This document shows, piece by piece, positions 21,447 to 44,879 of a stretch of 56,486 bases of DNA (its first letter is position 1; the number at the start of each line of letters is the position of its first letter). The notes beneath the pieces are model-generated. The model searched no databases. It was not told the DNA's origin and saw only the letters and a program-made list of their open reading frames with translations. The stretch covers positions 1 through 56,486 of the forward strand of contig JABLXV010000027.1 of NCBI GenBank assembly GCA_013177895.1, in the 5' to 3' direction. Position numbers and translations under genes: made by a program. Origin of the DNA: Brevinematales bacterium. GTDB taxonomy: Bacteria > Spirochaetota > Brevinematia > Brevinematales > GWF1-51-8.

Positions 21447-21786
21447 GGGTTTCGGGAACTACGGGGAAACTTTAGCCAAAATATTCTTAGAGGGATTAGG
21501 CTATCGTTTTATCGCCCAGAACTACCGGAACAGATTTGGGGAAATCGACCTGATTTTTCTCGACGGGGACGTGCTGGTCCTGGCCGAGGTGAAAATCCGC
21601 CGGAAAGAATCGGCGGCCACACTGGAAGATACGATTCCCTTATCGAAAATTAAAAAAATCCTGAAATGTGCCGAAATATTTATTGAGGGCAGCGTGGTCG
21701 GATACAAGGAGATGAGAATCGATGCGGTACTGATTTTAGAGGGCAGTGGCGCGCAGCGAATAGACCATTATAAGGATATCTACTAA
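21430..21786 (+). CDS. YraN family (UPF0102) endonuclease-like protein
   Basis: The 118-residue protein has the YraN pattern: GNYGETLAKIFLEGLGYRFIAQNYRN, then FGEIDLIFLDGDVLVLAEVKIR, which preserves the Asp and the ExK of the restriction-endonuclease-like core. YraN is widespread, often near rnhB, and thought to act on DNA, but its job is not settled. The start is GTG at 21430, overlapping the HD-GYP gene; the following small gene overlaps its stop by a TAATG junction. The position in a flagellar cluster is probably only genomic habit. Confidence 0.88.
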   Translation: MTSGNKGFGNYGETLAKIFLEGLGYRFIAQNYRNRFGEIDLIFLDGDVLVLAEVKIRRKESAATLEDTIPLSKIKKILKCAEIFIEGSVVGYKEMRIDAVLILEGSGAQRIDHYKDIY

Positions 21787-22010
21787 TGGAAACAAACATG
21801 CCCGATTCGGCCACCGAAAGACTGAGGAAAAAGCGGAACTTTCACCGCATCATTGTGAAAACGAATTCCAGTTCGCTTTCCAAGGAACGGATGGATGTCC
21901 TGCGCAAGAAGATTTATGATCCCGCGTATATCAATCACGCGATCGAGAAGCTTGCCGATAATATCAGCAAAGCGATGCTGGAAGGGTATATCGATCAGAA
22001 GAACCTTTAA
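21786..22010 (+). CDS. small hypothetical protein, weakly FlgM-like
   Basis: This 74-residue charged protein is translationally coupled to yraN (TAATG). The C-terminal part, LSKERMDVLRKKIYDPAYINHAIEKLADNISKAML, resembles the C-terminal helix region of FlgM anti-sigma-28 factors (pattern V..L+..I..G.Y.v....IA..I), but the match is weak and based on pattern memory. Its place at the end of the FliK-FlhB-type cluster makes a flagellar regulator possible. A bidirectional terminator follows 105 nt later. Confidence 0.5.
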   Translation: METNMPDSATERLRKKRNFHRIIVKTNSSSLSKERMDVLRKKIYDPAYINHAIEKLADNISKAMLEGYIDQKNL

Positions 22011-22115
22011 CTGCAAGCGGGGTGTGCTGCATATCGATAATCGCTCGATAATCAGGGCTATTGCCGGTATGCGGGTAAAATCAAGTGTTATCATCGTCCC
22101 GCGATGGAACACGTA

Positions 22116-22145
22116 AAAAGGGGCTATCCTAAAATAGCCCCTTTT
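22116..22145 (+). terminator. terminator between convergent operons
   Basis: AAAAGGGGCTAT at 22116-22127 pairs perfectly with ATAGCCCCTTTT at 22134-22145 around a 6-nt loop, with a T run on one strand and an A run on the other. It can terminate both the flagellar-type cluster and the lipoprotein gene transcribed toward it. Confidence 0.85.
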
Positions 22146-22161
22146 ATTATTGCCGGGTCGA

Positions 22162-23157
22162 TTATTCCGTCAAACCCAGCGATGAGATATCCACCTCCCA
22201 AAGACCGCCTTCTTCAATATCTGTACGCCCATCATCTAAATGATAAGCGACTGGATAGCTTGCGGTTCTCCCCTGAAGCACATAGATTTTTGTTAGATTA
22301 GAATTAATCCCCATCACGCAATCCGACCAGCTTTTCTGATATAACGTACTTTTACCACTATCTATATCATATTGTAAATTACCGATATACAAATTCGTAT
22401 TATTCTGTATATCATAATAAGCTAATATTCCCTGATTATGAAGGGGACTCATAGGATAATTAAACCCTGAATAACTATATAGTATTCCCGAAAAATAATT
22501 AAAAAATAAATATCTGTTTTTCGGACTGAACCCGAGGATATCGTATCCTTTCGGGAGATCGATCTTCCGGTTCGATAGAAAATCGATAATAGCTAAATTA
22601 TACTCGCTATACCGGTTTGGACTCCCAATAATATCCGTTTCGACCCATTTCCCCAGACATAAAAGCGATGATTCTCCTTTACCGATCTCGGCTATAAAAG
22701 TCCCGCTTCCGAGATTTGTCTGGTAGATCAAGGGATAATTCGTTTGCGATGAATTCGTTCCCATCACCTTCAGGACGTTGTTCGTAATAAACACTACGTA
22801 TTTATCGTTCGCGCAGAGATATTTGACACCCGCTTTTTCCGGGAAGAAAAACCACGTGTCGTCCAGATTATTTGACGATTTAAATACTACGGCGTAATTC
22901 GTACCTGAATCCCAGTACCAAAAATAACAGTTATTTGAAATGATTCCCTGCCGGGATAACAATTCTGCTTTCATATCGTAATATTTTGATAATGGTTCTG
23001 ACGCATAATTCATCTCGTGAATTTTTATTGCGGGAAAGGCTAAATATTTGTACATCGGAGCATAGGGATCATTACCGTCTCCCGGAGCGTCTATAGCCGA
23101 ACAACCGGCTAAAATACCGAATAAACAAACGGATAATAGAATATTATTTCTTTTCAT
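22162..23157 (-). CDS. hypothetical lipoprotein
   Basis: The 331-residue protein has a typical lipoprotein signal peptide with lipobox LAGC (Cys about residue 19). The mature part is rich in Asn, Tyr and Ser with beta-strand-like repeats, perhaps a beta-propeller (segments such as SGTNYAVVFKSSNN and NRYLFFNYFSG), but no known domain is recognised. GGAGG precedes the ATG. It follows the larger lipoprotein gene by 13 nt and shares its low G+C. The two are probably one operon of surface or periplasmic lipoproteins. Confidence 0.7.
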   Translation of the reverse strand: MKRNNILLSVCLFGILAGCSAIDAPGDGNDPYAPMYKYLAFPAIKIHEMNYASEPLSKYYDMKAELLSRQGIISNNCYFWYWDSGTNYAVVFKSSNNLDDTWFFFPEKAGVKYLCANDKYVVFITNNVLKVMGTNSSQTNYPLIYQTNLGSGTFIAEIGKGESSLLCLGKWVETDIIGSPNRYSEYNLAIIDFLSNRKIDLPKGYDILGFSPKNRYLFFNYFSGILYSYSGFNYPMSPLHNQGILAYYDIQNNTNLYIGNLQYDIDSGKSTLYQKSWSDCVMGINSNLTKIYVLQGRTASYPVAYHLDDGRTDIEEGGLWEVDISSLGLTE

Positions 23158-23170
23158 TTTTTTCCTCCGG

Positions 23171-25078
23171 TTACTTTTTGTAAGGGAAACAGCATCTAGT
23201 AATTGAATAACCCCAATCCATATATTTTTCCCAAAACAGATAGTGATTTAAATAACTTCGCATGGTCAAACTTGCTTCATTTTGCGCTGGGTCTAAGGGA
23301 TTTGGATAATAGCCTGCTTCGGCGCCGTTTCCGTCCGTCAGAAGCATCCAGTTTTGATACCTCGTTTCCGTCCATTTATTAATCAGAATTTTAAACCAAA
23401 GAATATTCAGCCATTGATAACATGTTACATTATAGGAAGTTATCCTATATCCTATTCCAACCCGCCAATGACCGGCGTCTTCCTTCGGATCGAAATTCCC
23501 GACTTTTACCCATTTCGAACGGGCGATAAAAAACGGGTTGTCTTTCTCGATTGAATTCTTCATAACCACGAAAGTCGCCTCTTTATTTTGCGTTCCTCCC
23601 CAAATATTACATCCGACCCTATCGTCCGTAACCCATTTTATTCCTTTATCGACATCCCAAGAACCCCCATTGTTCCAATCGGTTATTCCCATTACCTTAC
23701 CGAGATTATAATATCCGTCCTGAGTAGTAGTATATGTTATTTTAATGTCGTATCCCACCCTTTTAGTTTCAGTAAATATCGTATTAGGTTTTTTTATAAT
23801 AATATCCGCCGTTCTTTCCATTGGGTCTAAAAAGTATAACCTCGCGCTAATCGAGAATTTAGCCGTACTATAACTTCCGAACATACTTATTTTTATTTTT
23901 ACACCGTTGGAAAGAGTGGTCAGTTGAGTGGATACTAGCTGTGTTTTTAAATCGATATTACTGACGCTTAAATTACTGATATAGGCTTTGTTCTGTAAAT
24001 CGTGGTAAACGGTAAATTCGTATGATACTGATCCCACGCCTGTTATAAAGTTGCTATAGATACATAAAGCGAGATTTGTCGACATTAAGTTTGTCGAAAT
24101 GTGATGGTCGTTTGTAATGGTATTCGTCTGAATCTTAACCTTGAGTTTTTCATAGTCGTTATAGTACATCGCGACAGTCGCCACAGCCGACGGCCCGCAC
24201 CATATTTTATCTTCATAGTTATATACATACTGAGAATTTTTCCAACTCAACTTATGTAAATTGTACTCCGGATTCCACCAGCTATCCTCGTTCCATAAGA
24301 AAAAGTTCTGCACCACCCGTCCGTCGTTTAACGGCTTTGCCTTCGTCTGTCCCGTATCCATCATTTCCTTGACTACATCGTCGTTCGTGGATAAATCTAC
24401 CAGATTGGTAAAGTACTGCTGGGTAAACTCCCAAAGGTCGAGGTTGACCTGAATATTCGATGTAACCGTTTCAATAATATCCGACGTATCCATCCCGTCG
24501 TTCGTGAAGTACTCCGGGTGTTCGAGCGCAAGTTCCGCCGGGTCGAGTTCCCCCTCCGTCTCCCCGCCGTCCGCGTCCATCGTACGGTATACAGCGCCGC
24601 CCGGCTGGCTCGCCGCGCCGTAGCACACCGACGGGTATCCGTTAGCGACCACCTTACTCCCGGAAATCCCCTTCAACGCGGCGGGCTGGGTATAATCCGG
24701 CGCGTAACGTAAAACGTACTGTACCGGGCCGCCGTCCTTTTTCTGCGCGACTGCGGTCACAGTCCCGGCTTCCACGCCGCCGAGGATGACCCGGAATTCG
24801 TAATACTTCGGGCGCGACTTGGCATCGTAAATCAGCACTGGGGTCAGCGATAATTCCGCGTCTTCCCACCCGTTGTCCACGCGGAACCCCTCGATCTCGA
24901 CCAACGCGAACGCGCGCGCGACCCTCCAATAGACGTACTCGTTTCCCAGATTGGTGATAGCGTCGAGTTCCGCGATAGTTGCATAAGGAGTATCGGATTG
25001 ATAATTTACCAGCGAAACAGGCTGCGCCTGATTCGGCTCGAACGAGCATCCCATAACCGCGACCGCGATTATGCCCAA
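23171..25078 (-). CDS. C39/papain-fold peptidase-like lipoprotein with a frameshifting repeat at its natural start
   Basis: The 635-residue frame has a lipobox (VMGC), an N-terminal region of about 180 residues that could be a propeptide-like PepSY/Spi module, and a C-terminal cysteine-peptidase-like domain: WCGPSAVATVAMYY with the candidate Cys, AGHWRVGIGY with His and NWMLLTDGNG with Asp/Asn. The frame as it stands can only start at TTG 25078, giving a signal peptide without basic residues. A much better start, ATG at 25125 with a GGAAGGG site and an MRK leader, is one AC unit out of frame because of an (AC)8A tract at 25094-25110. Removing one AC unit restores a full lipoprotein signal. 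This suggests phase variation or a sequencing error. Confidence 0.7.
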   Translation of the reverse strand: MGIIAVAVMGCSFEPNQAQPVSLVNYQSDTPYATIAELDAITNLGNEYVYWRVARAFALVEIEGFRVDNGWEDAELSLTPVLIYDAKSRPKYYEFRVILGGVEAGTVTAVAQKKDGGPVQYVLRYAPDYTQPAALKGISGSKVVANGYPSVCYGAASQPGGAVYRTMDADGGETEGELDPAELALEHPEYFTNDGMDTSDIIETVTSNIQVNLDLWEFTQQYFTNLVDLSTNDDVVKEMMDTGQTKAKPLNDGRVVQNFFLWNEDSWWNPEYNLHKLSWKNSQYVYNYEDKIWCGPSAVATVAMYYNDYEKLKVKIQTNTITNDHHISTNLMSTNLALCIYSNFITGVGSVSYEFTVYHDLQNKAYISNLSVSNIDLKTQLVSTQLTTLSNGVKIKISMFGSYSTAKFSISARLYFLDPMERTADIIIKKPNTIFTETKRVGYDIKITYTTTQDGYYNLGKVMGITDWNNGGSWDVDKGIKWVTDDRVGCNIWGGTQNKEATFVVMKNSIEKDNPFFIARSKWVKVGNFDPKEDAGHWRVGIGYRITSYNVTCYQWLNILWFKILINKWTETRYQNWMLLTDGNGAEAGYYPNPLDPAQNEASLTMRSYLNHYLFWEKYMDWGYSITRCCFPYKK

Positions 25079-25093
25079 CAGCGCGCTAAGTGC

Positions 25094-25110
25094 TGTGTGT
25101 GTGTGTGTGT
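25094..25110 (-). repeat. AC dinucleotide microsatellite in a signal-peptide coding region
   Basis: Read on the minus strand, 17 bases of pure AC repeat follow codon 5 after the ATG at 25125. In its present length the ATG frame stops after 18 codons; a tract of 15 or 21 would join it to the lipoprotein frame. Confidence 0.85.
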
Positions 25111-25309
25111 TACGACCTTTCTCATTTTATCCCTTCCTTCTTAAATATTCCCCTAGATATTGACTGAAGAGAGTATATCACGATGATTTAAAATTGTCAA
25201 GCGGATACGCTGTATTGAAGTGTATTTTTCTATGATATGTAGTAAATGTTTATTTCACGGTACATCACAGGCTAGCGACCTCATCCTTATCTCAGTTTAA
25301 AGCCCGCCC

Positions 25310-26020
25310 TCAGGGCGCCCATACCCGCCCGATATTCGTCATCGCTGTCCACCCCTCTTTCCCGTCTATCGTCGTGATATAGTAATATGTATCCAGTTCC
25401 TTTTCGATCCTGCACTCGATGCCGGGGGTGAGGGATTTTTTCTCGACAGCGGTATTGTCGGGACGGTCGGAGATTTCCCCGCCGGTTAATACCACTCCCA
25501 ACGTTTTATCGAACGTGCTCTCGTAACGGAGCCATAGCCCGGCGATATAGACGATCCCGGTGATGATCGCGATAATCGACGTCACCCGCACCCATCGTTT
25601 ATCAAGCCCTGCGGCGATACCACTCAGGACGAGGCTCAGGACGGTACTCCCGATGATAAACAGGCTCAGCCCGAATATGAGCATCCCCGTGAAATTGAAC
25701 ACGGTGAACGGGAACAGCAATACCCCCTCGAGCGGGGTAGCCTCGAAAAAGTACCCGGGTATCCCGATAGTCTCGCGTGCGGAGGTCAACGCTTCCTTGA
25801 TATCGGGGTCGTAGGGGTTGAGGAGTTCGGCGCGTTTGAGGTTCAGTATCGCGCGCCCGATATCGTTCTGCTTGAGGTACCCGATACCGAGATTGTAATA
25901 GATATTTTCGTTCCTTATTTTCGACGCGGCGTCTTCCAGTTCCGCGATGGTGTTGGTCTGCGGGTATGCCGCGGGCGCGGTCAGGAGAAGGAGCGCTATT
26001 AATACGGGCATACGGGTCAT
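25310..26020 (-). CDS. BatE-like TPR and SH3 membrane protein
   Basis: The 236-residue protein has a signal peptide (about 20 residues), one or two TPR units (IYYNLGIGYLKQNDIGRAILNLKRAELLNPYDPDI), two membrane helices at about 107-165, and a C-terminal SH3-like domain ending in GWTAMTNIGRVW. TPR, two membrane spans and SH3 is the order seen in BatE of Bacteroidetes and spirochaetes, but batA-D are not adjacent. Its start overlaps the stop of the MBL hydrolase gene by one base (TGATG), so translation is coupled. Confidence 0.65.
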   Translation of the reverse strand: MTRMPVLIALLLLTAPAAYPQTNTIAELEDAASKIRNENIYYNLGIGYLKQNDIGRAILNLKRAELLNPYDPDIKEALTSARETIGIPGYFFEATPLEGVLLFPFTVFNFTGMLIFGLSLFIIGSTVLSLVLSGIAAGLDKRWVRVTSIIAIITGIVYIAGLWLRYESTFDKTLGVVLTGGEISDRPDNTAVEKKSLTPGIECRIEKELDTYYYITTIDGKEGWTAMTNIGRVWAP

Positions 26021-31952: not shown

Positions 31953-34292
31953 TTACCACGGGAATACATACACAGAACCGGATATACTCCCCATATCGTC
32001 ATCACCATATGATCCCACAACCACCGTACCTCCGTCACCGGAAAGGGAAACCGATGCTCCGAAATAGTCGTTTACCGCCCCGTCATACGCAATATATTTA
32101 TTGGTAAGCCAATCCGAGCCGCTCTTTATAAATAAATATACCGACCCTTTCGAGTCGTCACCCGTCGAGCTGGCGGCTATCTTATTCCCATCCGCGGAAA
32201 TGGATACCGATGTTCCGAAACAATCATACGCCGCTTCATCAAAAGCATAAAACTTGTTCGTAATCCAGTCCGATCCGCTTTTCGTGAAAAGATACACCGC
32301 TCCCGAACCGTCTCCCTTATCCTGATCGTTCCATGCCCCGACTATTAGGGATGTCCCGTCCGCGGAAACCGAAACGGATTCCCCGAAACGCTGGTAAGCA
32401 AATTGATTATTTGGGACAAACTTATTAGTAAGCCAAACCGACCCGCTCTTCGTAAACAAATAGACCGAGCCGGAATTGGTTCCTTTATCGTCATCTTGCC
32501 ACGCGCTCACGGCGAATGCGTTCCCATCGGCGGACACGGAAACACTATACCCGAACAAATCGTCCGCCGCCCCGTCCAACGGGACAAACTTATTAGTCAG
32601 CCAGACCGACCCGCTTTTCGTAAATAAATAGGCCGAGCCGGAATCGGTTCCTTTATCGTCATCTTTCCTGCTTCCGACTACCATCACGGTTCCATCAGCC
32701 GAGAGGGAAACAGCACGCCCGAACCAATCGCTGGCCGCTCCGTCGAGAGCAACAAACTTATTGGTCAACCAGACCGACCCGCTTTTCGTAAAAAGATACA
32801 CCGAACCGGAATCGGCTCCTTTATCGTCGTCCCTCTGCGATCCTACCGCGAGAATCGTCCCATCCGCGGATAAGGATACGATACCAAACAGGTCGCCTGC
32901 CGCCCCATCGGATGCGATAAACTTATTGGTCAGCCAGACCGAGCCGCTTTTTGAGTAGAGATAGACTGACCCCGAATCGGCGCCTTTATCGTCATCCTTA
33001 TGCGAGCCTACTGCAAACGCGCTTCCATCGCCGGAAACCGAGATATATATCCCGTATTCGTCATTTGCCACCCCGTCGCACGCAGTAAATTTATTATCCT
33101 TGATAATCAACCAATTATCGAGCGTGTTTGTCACCCCGCTGTCGGTAATCGCGCGGAACGAGAAGGTGTTCGTACCGATAGGCAGGTAAACCGGGGCAGT
33201 CCATGAAACAGTACCCGATACGTTCGTCCATACTCCGGCGTTCATCCGGTATTGCACCTTTACTACACTATACGGCGCGAGAACGCTTGACGTCCCGGAA
33301 ATCGTTATTTCCGGATTCTTTAGAAATGTCCCGTTGGTGGGAGTCGTTACATTAATAACCGGCGCGGATACCTTGATAATTTTCCACACTGGGGTAGTAT
33401 TCGTCCGGTTGTTATCGGCGATAACCCGTGCGTAAACCGAGTTCGTACCTTCCGCAAGTGTAAAGGTATTCGACCACGAGAGAGCGCCGGACGCGTCCGC
33501 CCATCCCCCCGCGTTCAGCATTACCTGTACTTTTTCGATAGAATAAGGAGCGTCGATACCCGCCGTACCAGTGAATTTGATTTGCGGCGTCAGGCACTTC
33601 GTCCCGTTCGCGGGCAGGGAAATCGTGATAGCGGGTTCAGGCATGATAAAGACTATCGTCCATCCGGCGCTGAAATTGGTCTTCCCGTTATCGGCGATAA
33701 CCCTTGCGCTGATAGTATTAGTCCCCTCGTCAAGCATCAGGATATTCGTCCATGAGACCGTACCGGACGCATTAATCCATGTCCCCGAGTTCAGACATAG
33801 CTGGACCGCCAGCACGTTCACAGGCGAATCCACCCCGGCGGTTCCGGTAATCGTAACGTTCGATACGTTAACAGTCGACCCGTTGGCAGGAGAGTCGATG
33901 GTCACAAACGGGATAATATCTCGCTCGACCCACACGGACGCCTCGCCGGACATATTTCCCGCGTTATCACGGGCGTAAACTGTATTGGAATGAATTCCAT
34001 CGTTGGATACGCTGATATTTGCCGTCCAGATACCGTTGACGGGAATTACCCCTGTAAACTCTCCGCCGTCCGTCCTGATATATACCTTCTCGACACCGGA
34101 ACCCCCGCTGTCGCTGACAGTCCCTGTAATCTGGTAGCTTCCGCCGACCTTCTGACCGTTAGTCGGCGATGTTATCGTAAACACCGGCGGTATAGTCTCG
34201 GTGTTATCTCCGGTGCTTCCATCGGGGGTCTGAACCGAACACCCCATACTCAATAGAAAATATGCAAATAGAACCCACACCATTCTTTTCAT
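31953..34292 (-). CDS. lipoprotein with four Ig-like domains and a seven-bladed FG-GAP-like propeller
   Basis: About 779 residues. The lipobox is SMGC. Four Ig-like repeats follow (each about 90 residues, opening FTITSP, VTIDSP, ITISLP and INVTTP, with ARVIADN or RAITDS turns). Then come exactly seven repeats of about 56 residues with the pattern FG.SVS.S.DG...V.S..DDDKG..SGSVYLF.KSGS.WLTNKF. The DDDKG loops could bind calcium as in FG-GAP repeats. It should be a surface-exposed adhesion or binding protein; the ligand is unknown. The ATG at 34292 has an AGGAGG site. Blades 1-4 are nearly identical in places, which suggests recent duplication. Confidence 0.8.
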   Translation of the reverse strand: MKRMVWVLFAYFLLSMGCSVQTPDGSTGDNTETIPPVFTITSPTNGQKVGGSYQITGTVSDSGGSGVEKVYIRTDGGEFTGVIPVNGIWTANISVSNDGIHSNTVYARDNAGNMSGEASVWVERDIIPFVTIDSPANGSTVNVSNVTITGTAGVDSPVNVLAVQLCLNSGTWINASGTVSWTNILMLDEGTNTISARVIADNGKTNFSAGWTIVFIMPEPAITISLPANGTKCLTPQIKFTGTAGIDAPYSIEKVQVMLNAGGWADASGALSWSNTFTLAEGTNSVYARVIADNNRTNTTPVWKIIKVSAPVINVTTPTNGTFLKNPEITISGTSSVLAPYSVVKVQYRMNAGVWTNVSGTVSWTAPVYLPIGTNTFSFRAITDSGVTNTLDNWLIIKDNKFTACDGVANDEYGIYISVSGDGSAFAVGSHKDDDKGADSGSVYLYSKSGSVWLTNKFIASDGAAGDLFGIVSLSADGTILAVGSQRDDDKGADSGSVYLFTKSGSVWLTNKFVALDGAASDWFGRAVSLSADGTVMVVGSRKDDDKGTDSGSAYLFTKSGSVWLTNKFVPLDGAADDLFGYSVSVSADGNAFAVSAWQDDDKGTNSGSVYLFTKSGSVWLTNKFVPNNQFAYQRFGESVSVSADGTSLIVGAWNDQDKGDGSGAVYLFTKSGSDWITNKFYAFDEAAYDCFGTSVSISADGNKIAASSTGDDSKGSVYLFIKSGSDWLTNKYIAYDGAVNDYFGASVSLSGDGGTVVVGSYGDDDMGSISGSVYVFPW

Positions 34293-44680: not shown

Positions 44681-44879
44681 GGCTAAACCCGATATCAACA
44701 GAATAGAAAATATCTATCGCCAGCCCATGGTCAAGCTAGCGCTAATATGTAAAAATAATGGCGCAGGCTAGACCCGATATCGATAGAATAGAAAATATCT
44801 ATCGCCAGCCCGTGGTCAAGCTAGCGCTAATATGTAAAAATAATGGCGCAGGCTAAACCCGATATCGATAGAATTAAGG
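44681..44879 (+). repeat. 85-bp tandem repeat, 2.3 copies
   Basis: Unit 1 spans 44681-44765, unit 2 44766-44850, and a partial third 44851-44879. Units 1 and 2 differ at about four positions. Each holds an inverted repeat of CGATAGA/TCTATCG type (best in unit 2) and GCGC pairs around a TAATATGTAAAAATAAT centre, so each could fold into two hairpins. It lies in the 726-bp gap before the DUF624-like gene and contains no credible ORF. Confidence 0.85.

Follow-up and report, generated by a model that had tools for sequence, protein, structure and literature searches.

Phase variation driven by simple repeats is known mostly from host-associated pathogens. In Treponema pallidum, tpr and other genes carry homopolymeric (poly-G) contingency tracts whose length controls genes for outer-envelope proteins, and in Helicobacter pylori the sabA and babB genes contain CT dinucleotide repeats in the region that codes for the signal peptide. 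CT dinucleotide repeats likewise occupy the signal-peptide region of H. pylori oipA (hopH) (PMC10564699). We found no literature report of phase variation in the Brevinematales (GWF1-51-8 group). The DNA analysed here, referred to as the window, is a stretch of 56,486 nucleotides from a bacterium of this group, and it contains a gene with an AC dinucleotide repeat close to its 5' end. Judged from the sequences of this gene and its relatives, it probably belongs (probability about 0.83) to a family of phase-variable surface lipoproteins governed by slipped-strand, simple-sequence contingency loci, with the window copy in the OFF state.

The ATG at 25125 is followed by codons for MRKVV and then by the repeat, and the resulting short open frame closes with a stop codon that ends at 25069 on the minus strand (Table 1). 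The original prediction had the tract follow directly upon MRK; the (AC)8A itself is present as described, preceded however by MRKVV, so that it starts at codon 6. The predicted termination after 18 codons was confirmed by translation. A shift of one dinucleotide separates the frame of this ATG from the 635-codon lipoprotein frame, and removal of a single AC unit (n = 7) joins MRKVVTHTHTALSALLGIIAVAVMGC to the 635-residue frame, again as predicted; n = 10 does the same. At either length the ATG frame reads MRKVVTHTHT(HT)ALSALLGIIAVAVMGC, a convincing lipoprotein leader, in which a positive n-region, a hydrophobic stretch and a lipobox ending in Cys can be recognised by eye at n = 7. All four genes of this type that we found (see below) behave alike when one unit is gained or lost: n = 7 and n = 10 are open and give the full-length product, and adjacent values of n stop early. 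Of the two OFF frames, one is closed at once by a TAG inside the conserved 3' flank of the tract (AGCAYTTAG).

Table 1. Features of the tract gene and its surroundings (window coordinates)
Feature	Position	Strand	Remark
Promoter-like TTGACA-17-TATACT, with TG ahead of the second hexamer	25172..25200	-	11/12 consensus match; consensus match only
Shine-Dalgarno-like GAAGGAAGGG, 5' of ATG 25125	25131..25140	-	-9.8 kcal/mol against the 16S tail
OFF-phase ORF of 18 codons, MRKVVTHTHTQHLARCWA followed by a stop	25069..25125	-	translation from ATG 25125
(AC)8A tract, proposed switch, from codon 6	25094..25110	-	17 bases; counterpart at codon 6 of three sister genes
Conserved 3' flank GCACTTAGCG (GCATTTAGCG in the sister genes)	25084..25093	-	alignment of four 5' regions
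Main frame, 635 codons counted from TTG 25078	23171..25078	-	predicted lipoprotein: N-terminal family domain and C-terminal cysteine-peptidase-like domain
Lipobox VMGC	25046..25057	-	joined to MRKVV...ALSALLGIIAVA only if n = 1 modulo 3
Cys294 of WCGPS, candidate catalytic cysteine	24197..24199	-	no substitution among 11 homologues; numbered C276 in the aligned fragment
His537 of HWRVGIGY, candidate catalytic histidine	23468..23470	-	conservation of at least 90%; numbered H519 in the aligned fragment
Second lipoprotein gene, MKRNNILLSVCLFGILAGC...VDISSLGLTE	22162..23157	-	13 bases downstream of the main frame

The signals for expression point to the ATG in front of the tract as the start. Its ribosome site pairs at -9.8 kcal/mol, as against +1.2 kcal/mol at TTG 25078, the likely choice of a gene caller, which has no ribosome site; the 5% quantile of random positions, which served as a yardstick, is -8.5 kcal/mol. 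In the three sister genes the corresponding pairing is stronger still (-11.9 to -12.6 kcal/mol). The TTGACA-17-TATACT element is the best consensus match of the region, and CGCTTGACA is common to all four tract genes. The claim that ATG 25125 is the start with a good ribosome site is thus upheld. No start upstream of it can serve the lipoprotein frame, which is closed by a stop codon 4 nt 5' of the ATG, and a scan of all four tract genes yielded no credible alternative start. In the (AC)9 gene of a related species, for example, a stop interrupts the lipoprotein frame immediately 5' of the tract, and the first ATG, GTG or TTG to follow is an ATG inside the hydrophobic stretch. With n = 8 out of frame and no credible alternative start, the window gene is assembled in the OFF state, as had been proposed.

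Repeats of this kind are not expected by chance: (AC)6 appeared in none of 100 shuffles of the window, and the 3.6 Mb genome has two (AC)8 tracts where a dinucleotide model predicts 2e-5. These two are the only places in the genome with at least six AC units, and both lie at codon 6 of family genes, namely the window gene and a paralogue; two further AC places stop at (AC)5. The earlier suggestion to look for AC tracts in other lipoprotein genes of the genome (G000) therefore led to one more (AC)8, which is located at the 5' end of the paralogue on contig C25 (G000:C25:42227-42243; (AC)8A at codon 6, after MKNLV) and shows the same frame offset as that of the window gene. The sole place with at least six units in the congeneric genome G002 is an (AC)9 after MKSPV (C16:12918-12936), and that in the congener G003 is a (CA)8 after MKKGL (C17:151-166), each again placed at codon 6 in a member of the family, while G001, the only congener with no family homologue, has no such place. 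The G002 gene is the orthologue of the C25 paralogue, a flagellin gene adjoining each, and the orthologues of the two species differ in repeat number (8 vs 9). The G003 tract lies at a contig end, and the terminal bases there are identical to the beginning of C31, a further family gene. Within the genus, every family member with a readable 5' end carries its own tract of 8 or 9 units. Beyond it, those homologues whose 5' end could be read, from DeMMO3_10, Treponema and further MAGs, are tract-free and in frame, and have ordinary lipoprotein leaders that are hydrophobic and end in Cys. When the 5' regions of the four tract genes are aligned, the block CACACACACACACACAGCAYTTAGCG stands out against diverged flanks, and the 15-mer ACAGCAYTTAGCGYT of the sister genes is almost confined to the genus. 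The pattern ATGA, then 4-30 nt, then at least seven AC units matched only the four tract genes and two others across 247 Spirochaetota genomes; in those two, a short open frame rather than a long coding frame contains the tract.

Several further members and repeats were encountered in this survey. One family gene in G003 (C3) has 104 Ns directly 3' of ATGAAA, and its tract may for this reason have been lost in scaffolding. The C25 paralogue is truncated by an insertion sequence, whose end (G000:C25:42736-42911) occurs 15 times in the genome (C25 and 14 identical copies, many of them at contig ends), and G000:C86 may be the remainder of the C25 gene. In G002:C16 homology is lost near the contig end. 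AC tracts of 14-18 bases occur in short open frames of G021 and G031, in the latter directly upstream of a lipoprotein-like frame, and are perhaps 5' untranslated repeats. Poly-C is represented in the window's genome by one C11 with no evident gene switch, and AG tracts were not found in the genus. The 1.5 Mb genome G009, from another family of the same order, is extremely rich in long repeats, with 229 matches to (AG)6 (tracts of up to 52 bases) and 63 to C10, and one of its gene starts consists of ATGAAAAAT followed by C14 and (AC)6; a repertoire of many phase-variable loci is possible there. Elsewhere in the window, a tandem repeat with a period of 168/333 bases and approximately 75% identity (32413-33033) perhaps encodes a repeat protein, and 2.3 copies of an 85-base unit with 95% identity are present at 44681-44874.

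The four tracts have n = 8, 8, 9 and 8, all out of frame given that n = 7 or 10 corresponds to ON; with equally frequent phases, four OFF copies have a chance of (2/3)^4 = 0.20. Of the two outcomes that the original prediction named as refuting it, a fixed tract with a conserved alternative start and a tract length that is in frame throughout, neither is seen in the relatives, and its phase-variable reading is supported. Downstream of the tract the orthologues G000:C25 and G002:C16 are 90% identical in DNA, and in the post-tract frame they differ by 38 synonymous and 9 non-synonymous changes over 162 codons (dN/dS 0.055). This frame is under strong purifying selection though both orthologues are assembled OFF. 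Such a ratio indicates that it is translated and selected despite the OFF copies, and it therefore fits a reversible switch rather than fixed decay.

The predicted product combines a conserved N-terminal region characteristic of the family (PKYYEFRV...GAI) with a C-terminal domain in which, beside the candidate cysteine, the Gly-Pro and the His-x-Arg motif (HWR/HYR) are nearly invariant among 11 homologues. We infer from this conservation that the Cys and His may act in catalysis. The only recurring Pfam match, Peptidase_C39_2 (PF13529), reaches 16.7 bits against a gathering cut-off of 24 and is thus below cut-off, and searches of Pfam, NCBIfam and PDB sequences with family members or profiles gave nothing above threshold. 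The model of the window protein was poor (pLDDT 42) and was left out of the fold search. A compact Treponema homologue was modelled better (pLDDT 77, pTM 0.81), and its top PDB matches, weak at E-values of 0.04-0.07, were T. denticola TDE0362 and staphopain; these are papain-type cysteine peptidases, the structure of TDE0362 having been solved with E-64 bound. As the Pfam match is sub-threshold and the fold E-values are of this order, the term peptidase-like is to be taken as a lead, weakly supported by the conserved Cys-Gly-Pro and His, the C39_2 match and the weak papain-type fold matches. The best reading of the sequence is that of a putative surface lipoprotein with weak papain/C39-like features.

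The second lipoprotein gene, which follows the main frame closely, has a ribosome site of its own (-9.5 kcal/mol), and relatives of it that end in ISSLGLSE come after a family gene in G000:C86, G003:C31 and G003:C39. It is likely co-transcribed with the tract gene, and because of its proximity and the recurrence of this gene order the OFF phase may lower its expression by polarity. All four congeners retain the upstream neighbour at 25310-26020 but differ in what comes after it. Comparison of window positions 21783-25310 with G001:C8, G002:C131 and C92, and G003:C51 reveals an accessory slot that lies between conserved neighbours and is filled differently from one congener to another; in G002 one contig breaks off within the partner gene, and that from the opposite side has a different gene.

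Other explanations of the tract have to be weighed against a switch. One is programmed recoding, in which RNA polymerase or the ribosome slips on the AC tract, so that an OFF gene still yields lipoprotein at a low and constant level; the tract would then be kept for that purpose and not for heritable switching. It would account for a downstream frame that is under purifying selection with all four tracts OFF, and for a tract and 3' flank that are conserved where the other flanks have diverged. However, the frame would have to be corrected in one direction at n = 8 and in the other at n = 9, which disfavours any single programmed frameshift, and AC repeats are not known to serve as a standard slippery site for ribosomes. 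Moreover, an AC tract would slip in replication too, so that recoding may add to the switch rather than replace it; we regard it as unlikely to be the explanation. The family might instead consist of pseudogenes, with the tracts as fixed frameshifts in decaying genes. The four-of-four OFF count, the multi-copy insertion sequence that cuts one copy, and the accessory nature of the window slot, which has no homologue in G001, are in line with this. Decay is nevertheless hard to reconcile with the 635 codons that are still open in the window gene, with the low dN/dS after the tract between G000:C25 and G002, and with an intact promoter-like box and ribosome site; four genes decaying independently would also not all end up with this repeat at codon 6, and we consider decay very unlikely.

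An error of assembly or sequencing that conceals a true (AC)7, always in frame, has in its favour that repeat tracts are error-prone and that these are draft assemblies, in which family genes are often at contig ends. Nevertheless, four separate tracts in three assemblies have lengths of 8, 8, 9 and 8 with none in frame, and 17-19 bases fit well within a short read. Two tracts in one genome and two in other species share the same codon, which makes a local error unlikely, and the in-frame length that such an error presupposes is not borne out by any of the four; this explanation has a very slim chance. Finally, the short ORF might be a Thr/His-rich, amino-acid-sensing leader peptide, with the lipoprotein starting at TTG 25078. 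MRKVVTHTHT... does superficially resemble attenuation leaders, and the TTG is in frame; but this codon, lacking a ribosome site, would yield a signal with no positive n-region, the G002 lipoprotein frame has no usual start codon ahead of its hydrophobic stretch, and the leader encoded by (AC)9 stops elsewhere. The probability of a leader peptide is accordingly close to nil.

With a phase-variable lipoprotein family as the preferred reading, replication slippage would add or remove AC units in the region coding for the signal peptide. At n = 7 or 10 (1 modulo 3) the ATG frame would pass through the tract into the lipoprotein signal and the surface lipoprotein would be made, and at other values of n translation would end after roughly 11-22 codons with no lipoprotein formed. 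We infer both slippage within the population and the surface location of the product. As each readable member has its own tract, family members could switch independently. Two points speak against a switch: the four assembled tracts are all OFF, and with 8-9 units they are rather short for a fast one. Some members may in addition be decaying, since an insertion sequence cuts G000:C25 and the homology of G002:C16 fades near a contig end. A more specific but less likely picture is that, in a genus whose sampled genomes are otherwise almost free of AC repeats, gene duplication and speciation have left one AC repeat in place at an unchanged codon, making a family of peptidase-like surface lipoproteins into independent random switches; the sampled populations might be mainly OFF, with leaky expression possible via polymerase slippage. 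A conserved switch in uncultured Brevinematales would point to strong fluctuating selection on surface proteins, be it by phage, grazers, a host or neighbours. If annotated from one assembly only, such genes would be called 'frameshifted' or be given a false start.

In its mechanism the proposed switch corresponds to dinucleotide contingency genes that are already known; what is new, so far as we searched, is the bearer, the repeat and the family-wide conserved placement. As regards the product, the family shares the Cys-Gly-Pro and His-x-Arg motifs with papain-like peptidases (Peptidase_C39_2, staphopain, TDE0362), to which it shows weak profile and fold matches, and differs from them in an extra N-terminal domain of approximately 150 residues and in long insertions. 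The tpr genes of T. pallidum belong to the same phylum and also depend on repeat length for control, but they have a homopolymer in place of an AC tract in the signal peptide, and the proteins are unrelated. The nearest described system is Helicobacter oipA, which together with sabA and babB has a 5' dinucleotide tract in the signal-peptide region, a unit number that sets the frame, and a paralogue family with tracts. The present locus departs from oipA in that its repeat is AC and not CT, that its product is a predicted lipoprotein and not a Hop outer-membrane protein, and that it comes from a spirochaete, thus from another phylum.
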